IMG/VR virus record: IMGVR_UViG_3300006805_000092
Location: 1 to 32,404 of that record
Direction: 5' to 3' (one strand)
From: a virus
Length of the DNA: 32,404 nt
Part shown: positions 18,410-20,966 of the stretch, piece after piece
Numbering within the stretch: the first letter of the stretch is position 1
How the letters are laid out: each line of letters opens with the position of its first letter
Translations under genes and position numbers: made by a program
The notes under the pieces: generated by a model
Databases searched by the model: none
Told to the model about the DNA's origin: nothing
The model's input: the letters and a program-made list of their open reading frames with translations, nothing else

Positions 18410-19912
18410 ATGGCTAATACGAAAAAGAAGCGATACGGTAATCAGAAACCCCGACTAGACCAATTTACCAATGGTGATATTTGGCTTGCTGATAAAACAA
18501 TACGCCTCATGGAAGCATACGGCTGGAAGTTCCTAGAGTGGCAAAAGGCTATCATTTATCGTTGGCTGGCTGTTATTTATGATGAAGAGCAAGAGCAGTG
18601 GGTGTGGGCTAACCCGAAAGCTGGCTTGCTCGTGCCTCGCCAAAATGGTAAGACAGAAATCATTATTGCTCGAATTATCGGTGGTATGGTGTTCATGAAT
18701 GAAGCATTGATTTATACTGCCCATGCCGACAAAACTGTTGATGAAACAAAACGTCGTGTGCAACGCTTCTTTTACGATGCAAAGGCTGAGGTGCGTGATT
18801 TGCTTACTGATGAATTCGACAAAGAGCCAAAGAGCCTTGATTATGTTGAGTTGCGTGAGGGCGGTCGGTGCGTATTTCGTACCCGAACTCGTACTGGTGG
18901 ACTTGGTACAACCAATGATGCCCTTATTCTCGATGAAGCACAAGAAGAGACCGATGCACAGCAAGAAGCCCTATTGCCTACCATTTCAGCAGGTAAGAGC
19001 CAAAACCAACAAATCATTCGTGCCGGTACACCGCCTAGCGGTGGCGGCAATGGTACGGTATTTATTCGTATTAGGCAAAACGTTGTGGACGGCAAAGACC
19101 ATGAGACTTGCTGGCAAGAGTGGTCAGTTGAATTGCTTACCGATCCTAGCGATGAAGATGCGTGGTTTGCAACCAACCCTAGCCTTGGCTACCACCTAAT
19201 GATTACTGCGGTCCGAAATGAAGCAAAAGACATGGCAATCGACAGCTTTAACAAGATGCGTTTAGGCTGGATCGCTGGCGTAGAGAGTAAGCGAGCTATC
19301 ACTGATGGTCATTGGTCCGAACTCGCCATAAAGCCACCAAAGAAATTCAAAATGCCAGAAGATGCATCATACGTGTACGCAATTAAATTTGCCCCTGACG
19401 GCAGTGCGGTAAGCCTTGGCATTGGCGTTAATATGCCTGATGGCAAGGTACACGTTGAGATTATCGAGCGTAAGCCAATGAGTGCCGGTACGCACTGGCT
19501 TACTAACTGGCTATTCGATAAAAAGAAAAACAGGTGGCGTAAGGCATCTAAAATCATCATTGACGGTGCGAGTGGTACGCAATTGCTGGTTGAAGAGCTT
19601 ATACGTACTGACAGGCGTATTTCAAAGCGAATACTCACGCCTAACGTGCGTGAAGCAAGTGCAGCGTATGCATCGTTTCAAAATGCCGTAGAACACGCTG
19701 AGATAACCCACAGCGACCAATCAGGCTTGAATATGAGTATTAAGACGGTCAAGAAGCGTAGCATCGGCAAAGACGGTGCATTTGGCTATGCCAGTATGAA
19801 TAGCGAAATACAGAGCGACCCAACCGAATGCGTGGCTTTTTGCCAATATGGGGCAGTTCGTTTTAAAAATGTCCGTGTAGGTGGTGGAAGCAGTCAGCGT
19901 GTCATGTTATAG
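18410..19912 (+). CDS. terL: Terminase large subunit
   Basis: 500 residues with an ATPase and a nuclease domain. Walker A is 'VPRQNGKT' (75-82), the actinophage-style variant; Walker B is 'ALILDEAQ' (171-178) with the catalytic Glu. 'QQIIRAGTPPSGGGNGTVF' supplies the coupling motif. The nuclease half has 'YAIKFAPDGSAVSLGIG' and 'KIIIDGASGTQLLVEELI', providing acidic metal ligands. The motor pumps DNA through the portal. The preceding small subunit is separated by one base. It is remote from the portal gene, which is unusual. Confidence 0.95.
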   Translation: MANTKKKRYGNQKPRLDQFTNGDIWLADKTIRLMEAYGWKFLEWQKAIIYRWLAVIYDEEQEQWVWANPKAGLLVPRQNGKTEIIIARIIGGMVFMNEALIYTAHADKTVDETKRRVQRFFYDAKAEVRDLLTDEFDKEPKSLDYVELREGGRCVFRTRTRTGGLGTTNDALILDEAQEETDAQQEALLPTISAGKSQNQQIIRAGTPPSGGGNGTVFIRIRQNVVDGKDHETCWQEWSVELLTDPSDEDAWFATNPSLGYHLMITAVRNEAKDMAIDSFNKMRLGWIAGVESKRAITDGHWSELAIKPPKKFKMPEDASYVYAIKFAPDGSAVSLGIGVNMPDGKVHVEIIERKPMSAGTHWLTNWLFDKKKNRWRKASKIIIDGASGTQLLVEELIRTDRRISKRILTPNVREASAAYASFQNAVEHAEITHSDQSGLNMSIKTVKKRSIGKDGAFGYASMNSEIQSDPTECVAFCQYGAVRFKNVRVGGGSSQRVML

Positions 19913-19913
19913 T
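19905..19913 (+). promoter_or_regulatory. Extended -10 promoter at the end of terL
   Basis: TGT-TATAGT overlaps the terL stop codon. Its likely product is the short untranslated region 19920-20016, not a gene. Confidence 0.45.
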
Positions 19914-19919
19914 TATCAC

Positions 19920-20016
19920 TAGGGTTAAACGGAGTAAGACACGTTTAGCAATAGGCATACCTCCATTTGCCGACAATTACCACCGTGGGGTTATGAGCCT
20001 AGCAGGTGGTTTTTGT
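19920..20016 (+). ncRNA. Candidate small RNA with an anti-ribosome-site loop
   Basis: The stretch has no good coding frame but three foldable elements: TAAACG/CGTTTA (19926-19931 and 19942-19947), GGCA/TGCC (19954-19957 and 19968-19971) with the loop TACCTCCATT, and ACCACC/GGTGGT (19979-20010) followed by TTTTTGTTTT, a terminator. The loop is complementary to the AATGGAGG ribosome sites used at 7353, 20448, 23207 and 28309 and on the minus strand near 32225; for the gene at 23221 the match extends to 13 bases. Expression and activity are inferred. Confidence 0.4.
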
Positions 20017-20020
20017 TTTA
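19979..20020 (+). terminator. Terminator after terL or the small RNA
   Basis: ACCACC and GGTGGT enclose a 20-base loop, and a T-rich run follows directly. Confidence 0.65.
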
Positions 20021-20032
20021 CCTCTATGGGGC

Positions 20033-20061
20033 TTGACAAAAAGGCAACTGTGTGCTAATAT
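20033..20061 (+). promoter_or_regulatory. Consensus sigma-70-type promoter, leaderless
   Basis: TTGACA (20033-20038) is a perfect -35 box; 17 bases later stands TAATAT (20056-20061), preceded by TGC. The start codon follows 6 bases after the -10. This is the clearest promoter in the window. Confidence 0.85.
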
Positions 20062-20067
20062 ATAAAC

Positions 20068-20256
20068 ATGATTAATTCAATCAAAAACAAATACAACACA
20101 TTTACCCCCGGCGAATTCCTACCTATCTACGTAGATGGTAAACTTGCCAACCGTAACGCCTTTCACGCATACAAAGCTAAAACTACCCTTAAACTTATTG
20201 GTACAGCACTAGCCCCTGCCGCACATCGTATTGATGATTTCTTTGTAAATCACTAA
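20068..20256 (+). CDS. 62-residue basic protein, leaderless
   Basis: The product starts 'MINSIKNKYNTFTPGEFLPI' and is basic, with no family I recognise. A near-perfect promoter places the transcription start on the ATG, so it should be strong and leaderless. It sits alone just upstream of a candidate replication origin. This combination recalls an immediate-early phage protein or an initiator accessory, but there is no motif to confirm that. Confidence 0.65.
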   Translation: MINSIKNKYNTFTPGEFLPIYVDGKLANRNAFHAYKAKTTLKLIGTALAPAAHRIDDFFVNH

Positions 20257-20277
20257 GCCACCTCTGTTATTCAAGTC

Positions 20278-20332
20278 TTTTTATACACTATATAGAAATG
20301 TTTAATAAAACATTTTTACATACTATATAGAA
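20278..20332 (+). repeat. Two 20-bp direct repeats, each with a CTATATAG palindrome
   Basis: TTTTTATACACTATATAGAA (20278-20297) and TTTTTACATACTATATAGAA (20313-20332) differ at two positions and are 35 bp apart. Between them AAATGTTT-AATA-AAACATTT forms a perfect 8-bp stem. The AT-rich block precedes the DnaA-like boxes. Confidence 0.75.
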
Positions 20333-20364
20333 GCTACCCCTGTTACTATGTTCAATTGAGCACG

Positions 20365-20395
20365 TATTGCACATGTTTTGCACACGTTATTCACA
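20365..20395 (+). other. Candidate replication origin: three in-phase DnaA-like boxes
   Basis: TATTGCACA (20365-20373), TTTTGCACA (20376-20384) and TTATTCACA (20387-20395) are separated by exactly 2 bases, an 11-bp period. The third is a perfect match to the DnaA box consensus TTATnCACA, the second has one mismatch and the first has two. Two-base spacing of 9-mers is the geometry of cooperative DnaA arrays in bacterial oriC. An AT-rich repeat block lies immediately upstream. Confidence 0.5.
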
Positions 20396-20422
20396 ACTAG
20401 TTTGCTAATTAATTATGGTTGG

Positions 20423-20431
20423 TGGTATATT
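20423..20431 (+). promoter_or_regulatory. Extended -10 promoter after the candidate origin
   Basis: TGG-TATATT, followed by a strong AATGGAGGG ribosome site (20448-20456). Confidence 0.65.
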
Positions 20432-20462
20432 GAATATCAGACAAAGAAATGGAGGGTTTTAA

Positions 20463-20966
20463 ATGTCTTACAGTGTTGGTGAACAACGAAAACAAACAAT
20501 GATTAACAGATTAGGGGAAGCGGTTGCACTGATTGACGATCAGCGTTTTTTGCCATTCTATCGCTCTGTACAAATAAAGCTTGAGAAGCGTGGCAAAGCT
20601 GACGAATGGGGCAAAATGATTGCCCTTGCCAAGACCAAAGAGAATGCCAGCAGGTATTTCGCAAAGCTCTGCAAAATGGTCCGTGATGAAACGTACAAAT
20701 TTGTCGAGGCTGTTAAAGAGGTCAAGGCTGAGTTGCGACTATACGTGCACGACAAGCTTATCAAGTTCAAATTCGGCAAGTACCATAAGTTTTGGGTGCG
20801 TAAGGCTCAGGAATTCATCAACGTAAATGGCGAAAGTGGCTTTGTAGACCTGCTTGAATATGCCGAACGCAAAGGCATTAATCAAAAGCAGATGGCTACT
20901 GCATTGAAAAACTGCAAATCGCCAAAGCGATACTACAAAGAAAACATATTGGGGGCGGCACAATGA
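20463..20966 (+). CDS. Basic helical protein beside the candidate origin, unknown
   Basis: 167 residues, rich in Lys and Arg and mostly helical. The C-terminal part 'GFVDLLEYAERKGINQKQMATALKNC' resembles a helix-turn-helix or similar DNA-binding unit. No enzymatic motif is evident. It is the first gene after the DnaA-like boxes, driven by a good promoter and ribosome site, and overlaps the next small gene by ATGA. A replication-initiator or origin-binding role is possible from position alone. Confidence 0.6.
   Translation: MSYSVGEQRKQTMINRLGEAVALIDDQRFLPFYRSVQIKLEKRGKADEWGKMIALAKTKENASRYFAKLCKMVRDETYKFVEAVKEVKAELRLYVHDKLIKFKFGKYHKFWVRKAQEFINVNGESGFVDLLEYAERKGINQKQMATALKNCKSPKRYYKENILGAAQ

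Follow-up and report, generated by a model that had tools for sequence, protein, structure and literature searches.

Several classes of replication origin share parts with the phage locus described here. The basal unwinding system (BUS) of bacteria consists of DnaA-boxes and DnaA-trios (PMC8287927), while A+T-rich repeats, DnaA sites and helical phasing are described as working parts of both oriC and the iteron plasmids (PMC5043065). On the phage side, the lambda origin is activated by transcription that DnaA stimulates (PMC3985674).

The window, the whole stretch of viral DNA analysed (32,404 nucleotides), carries the following features, from an A+T-rich block to a small open reading frame:

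20279-20296, plus strand: repeat copy 1, TTTTATACACTATATAGA, with the invariant core ACTATATAGA
20297-20314, no strand: inverted repeat AATGTTT-AATA-AAACATT between the repeats, its stem varying symmetrically in relatives
20314-20331, plus strand: repeat copy 2, TTTTACATACTATATAGA; the two copies together form the candidate unwinding element
20365-20373, plus strand: DnaA-like box 1, TATTGCACA, one mismatch to TTWTNCACA
20376-20384, plus strand: DnaA box 2, TTTTGCACA, fitting TTWTNCACA, the form of the inferred host
20387-20395, plus strand: DnaA box 3, TTATTCACA, the exact consensus TTATNCACA
20402-20431, plus strand: candidate early promoter, with -35 TTGCTA (20402-20407) and extended -10 TGGTATATT (20423-20431)
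20451-20456, plus strand: Shine-Dalgarno-like GGAGGG
20463-20966, plus strand: 167-aa two-domain helical protein, directly downstream of the module in relatives

As in a BUS oriC (PMC8287927), the boxes are tandem, of the same orientation, about one helical turn apart and close to a weak duplex, and they share their motif with the dnaA region of the inferred host. Unlike in a BUS oriC, no CTA/TTA trios follow the boxes; the repeats are placed at the opposite side of the array, and their invariant sequence is unrelated. With the iteron plasmid origins of the P1, RK2 and F type (PMC5043065), the module has in common phased sites, A+T-rich opening repeats, DnaA sites and a conserved gene directly downstream; it differs in having two repeats only, with a symmetric stem between them, and no known Rep protein. 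The likeness to the lambda origin (PMC3985674) consists of DnaA sites in phage DNA and a promoter near the origin.

Lambda supplies both an initiator (O) and a helicase loader (P) from its own genes. Nothing like O or P was detected among the proteins of these phages that were scanned, nor was any polymerase, helicase, primase, SSB or known initiator recognised. The scan covered part of the window ORFs (against Pfam and PHROGs) and ten further proteins from relatives (against Pfam), and its outcome agrees with the lack of replisome genes noted in the first-pass annotation. The proteins recognised included terminase, a ParB-like protein, C5 and Dam methyltransferases, RusA, HNH nucleases, a lysin with CW_7 repeats, a LysM/CHAP protein, S-adenosylmethionine synthetase and HAD proteins.

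The three boxes of the window (20365-20395) are real and exceed chance. They lie on one strand with 2-bp gaps at an exact pitch of 11 bp, just as the first-pass annotation had described three DnaA-like 9-mers; its mention of an exact DnaA consensus holds for TTATTCACA, while TTTTGCACA fits TTWTNCACA and TATTGCACA departs from it at one position. Dinucleotide shuffling of the whole window, repeated 60 times, never produced a same-strand triplet at exact 11-bp pitch, and for three or more boxes within the local 131 bp P was about 0.001. Single TTWTNCACA sites, numbering 4 in the window against 5.2 expected, are not enriched and were discarded as evidence. Tandem boxes near consensus, as in this array, are what marks the boxes of a BUS origin. 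A search of viral contigs for the exact window array gave no match. Three TTWTNCACA sites at exact 11-bp pitch were nevertheless found in at least 120 stretches of viral contigs (L105-L224), so that DnaA arrays appear to be common among phages and an array of this kind is, by itself, not new.

The main significance of the array is its conservation across a phage family. With the 167-aa gene as query, 15 loci were found in viral contigs, and a scan for the repeat pair gave 44 stretches; pooling of both yielded 29 distinct family modules, the window included, while 11 further matches to the repeat pattern came from viruses without the 167-aa gene, mostly very A+T-rich ones. The 15 loci retrieved with the protein alone carried both ACTATATAGA cores without exception, and since these loci had not been selected for repeats, the conservation is not an artefact of the search. 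The order is constant: two near-identical 18-bp direct repeats around a stem, one to three DnaA boxes, an extended -10 promoter and the 167-aa gene. A search of related phages for the array, as had been proposed at the outset, thus gave a conserved, oriented module in 29 loci, its boxes nearly all in one orientation and about one helical turn apart.

Related phages were treated as independent, and for this reason the following enrichment and phasing figures overstate certainty somewhat: the 4,073 bp between repeat 2 and the start codon held 42 perfect TTWTNCACA on the coding strand and one on the opposite strand, whereas the remaining 367,023 bp of the same loci held 9 and 17, respectively; 28 modules (L007 left out) held 41 perfect boxes, where shuffling gave 0.64 on average and 4 at most; and the offsets of the boxes from repeat 2 clustered at about 11, 21, 32, 44, 54 and 66 bp, with a Rayleigh vector of 0.84 near the 11-bp period, a phasing that, with one box taken per locus, was reached by 0 of 2000 random placements. 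In 12 of the 14 near-complete genomes no box cluster ranked above the array. A few loci, such as L026 and L027, hold only degenerate boxes.

As judged from sequence, the relatives are a coherent family of phages of about 32 kb, with terminases 66-79% identical to that of the window, near-complete contigs of 30.8-35.2 kb and, in four of them, 127-bp terminal repeats. Between the terminase gene and the module, L001 (11968-12774) and 17 other loci have an opposite-strand gene for a LysM/CHAP lysin-like protein, which is missing from the window; a gene for S-adenosylmethionine synthetase occupies this interval in L009 (5218-6174), L010 (3063-4019) and L011 (7946-8902).

The host of these phages is probably Candidatus Saccharibacteria, as the terminase and homologues of the 167-aa protein suggest. 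When bacterial and archaeal genomes were searched with a terminase profile, two contigs of Candidatus Saccharibacteria MAGs came first (43% and 42% identity), followed by Coriobacteriia at 31%. A 58%-identical terminase is encoded on a further contig in one of these Saccharibacteria genomes; neither there nor in the surroundings fetched was the module found. In 32 Saccharibacteria dnaA loci (L073-L104), TTWTNCACA occurred 148 times, against 10 times for the reversed control motif, with TTTTCCACA as the commonest form, and the degeneracy of the boxes was the same as in the phages. One reading is that the phage boxes act as a decoy that titrates DnaA and halts host replication. The boxes are indeed conserved and of the host's type; titration, however, needs neither fixed positions relative to promoter and repeats nor so small a number as one to three boxes per genome, and we consider this reading very improbable.

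Downstream of dnaA, many of the Saccharibacteria loci contain boxes in close pairs, 9 bp apart, and behind them runs of CTA/TTA trios, for example L097, L103 and L074, and these sequences clearly indicate that many Saccharibacteria carry an origin of the basal unwinding type. DnaA-trios are trinucleotide runs (3'-GAT-5' type) that lie no more than about 16 bp from the boxes; for these, the host loci had a median score of 7.5, with runs such as CTA-TTA-CTA-TTA-CTA-CTA. After the phage boxes trios were absent, with a median score of 3.0 and a single CTA as the best run. The boxes of the host loci point towards the trios, while those of the phages point away from the repeats.

The A+T-rich block had been reported to contain 20-bp repeats; repeats are present, each of 18 bp, the two copies of the window being identical at 16 of 18 positions. 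Throughout the family the ACTATATAGA cores are invariant and the stem between them changes symmetrically, as TGTTT/AAACA, TGTTC/GAACA, TGTAC/GTACA or TTTCT/AGAAA. All 29 of 29 spacers contained a stem of 5 bp or more, compared with 6.8 in shuffles, and the covariation score exceeded those of all 500 shuffles and of all slid versions. The symmetry could come from a hairpin that forms once the DNA is melted or from a symmetric site for a protein. By nearest-neighbour energies, no 60-bp duplex is less stable than the cassette in 26 of the 29 loci, and the cassette of the window ranks among the least stable 0.05% of its stretches. The module therefore presents a box cluster adjoining an A+T-rich element of the unwinding type, a general property of DnaA-dependent origins.

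Several other identities for the repeats and their surroundings were rejected. They are not hidden DnaA boxes, since the positions that would match vary while ACTATATAGA is fixed, nor an element of the host oriC, as CTATATAG was absent from the 32 host dnaA loci. They are not a general partner of phage DnaA arrays: in a comparison set of at least 120 other 11-bp triple arrays in viral contigs, CTATATAG lay within 400 bp in 1 of the 120 listed. An attP site was rejected because the tyrosine integrase family PF00589, a search that covers tyrosine-type integrases and whose control was positive in all 14 genomes, was absent from 26 family records, and a structured RNA because no Rfam match was obtained in 19900-20500.

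Other sequences accompany such repeats. ACCYCTGTTA occurs on either side of the cassette of the window (20260-20269 and 20336-20345), and in L005, L018, L019 and L056 the upstream copy is inverted at about the same distance. In an unrelated A+T-rich phage (L038:6480-6950), a long array of TTATCCACAGC-type DnaA boxes at 11-bp pitch sits about 100 bp after its own ACTATATAGA repeat pair, and in L035 DnaA boxes lie about 300 bp from ACTATATAGA repeats.

The boxes are also tied to the promoter. The extended TGNTATATT form is present in most relatives. In most relatives, too, the array stops shortly before the -35 and keeps helical phase with the -10, the last box lying mostly 38-40 or 49-51 bp from the extended -10. 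Since the boxes keep such fixed helical distances upstream of an early promoter, part of the layout is accounted for by DnaA acting on transcription. In L007 (7889-8206), a 105-aa ORF with an HNH-like zinc pattern separates the repeat cassette from the boxes, which remain at the promoter. The whole locus might then be an early promoter and no origin, with DnaA activating or repressing the early genes and the repeats serving another regulator. This reading accounts for the position and phasing of the boxes and for L007, and keeps its standing because trios are lacking, because the boxes point away from the repeats and because none of the 14 near-complete genomes has a GC-skew switch at the module, where the first-pass annotation had proposed to look for one. 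By itself it leaves unexplained why hardly any of the genomes has a duplex less stable than the adjoining cassette and why the boxes are phased to the repeats, and it deprives the phage of a candidate origin; we regard it as unlikely, yet as a serious rival.

The product of the downstream gene, modelled as two helical domains with the C-terminal part also modelled alone, is a candidate partner of the repeats, we infer. It had no Pfam match over the cut-off and no match in PHROGs or NCBIfam, and fold searches with the whole protein and with the C-terminal domain gave no credible match in the PDB; in none of these searches was a recognisable Rep initiator found. The fold search yielded one weak match, to the viral protein A0A2H4PI59 (E 0.007). 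Against phage and plasmid collections nothing was found at E 0.01, the matches at E 10 being at chance level, and a scan of genome contigs with the alignment of the protein detected no relative. The N-terminal domain was found in 2 of 393 genomes of the Candidatus Saccharibacteria class, as ORFs of 131-133 aa beside tyrosine integrases in prophages (L230:128-523 and L231:9570-9971); the regions fetched around them contained no such DnaA array.

These observations bear on a plasmid-like origin that would be opened mainly by an initiator of the phage, possibly the 167-aa protein, bound to the ACTATATAGA repeats as iterons, with DnaA only assisting. Invariant repeat cores beside a conserved gene would fit such an origin, and phased DnaA sites beside repeats are typical of iteron plasmids (PMC5043065). 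There are, however, two repeats only, the protein is without a known initiator fold, and the relatives of its N-terminal domain adjoin prophage integrases with no array in the regions fetched, so that we hold this reading to be improbable.

A+T-rich repeats, phased boxes, a promoter and the lack of recognised replisome genes are together explained most simply by a DnaA-recruiting phage replication origin joined to an early control region, an interpretation to which we give slightly better than even chances. Bound to the boxes along one helical face, host DnaA would form an oligomer, which would melt the repeats with the aid of transcription from the adjacent promoter and probably also of a protein recognising ACTATATAGA, possibly the 167-aa product; the host helicase, primase and polymerase would then load and copy the phage genome. 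The original proposal that the phage recruits host DnaA for replication gains from the conserved, oriented array, the weak duplex alongside, the host type of the boxes and the absence of any recognised replisome gene. It is weakened by the missing skew switch and host-type trios, by boxes that point away from the repeats and are phased to the early promoter, by the split in L007 and by the loci with degenerate boxes. A more specific version, amounting to a new origin architecture, in which the invariant ACTATATAGA pair and the enclosed hairpin of a Saccharibacteria-phage origin, trio-free and promoter-coupled, are opened jointly by DnaA on the phased boxes and by the 167-aa protein as initiator, is put forward tentatively, as a possibility that we would not yet expect to hold.

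What appears to be new is the conserved composite module, unlike the origin of the host, in probable Saccharibacteria phages; no description of it was found in the few searches made of the open-access literature, which covers part of the literature. If the interpretation as an origin is true, small phages of ultra-small episymbiotic bacteria would replicate without recognisable replisome genes, by way of the host initiator at a purpose-built site. The module would then be a candidate for a small Saccharibacteria replicon and would allow one to test how DnaA can open DNA when DnaA-trios are absent.
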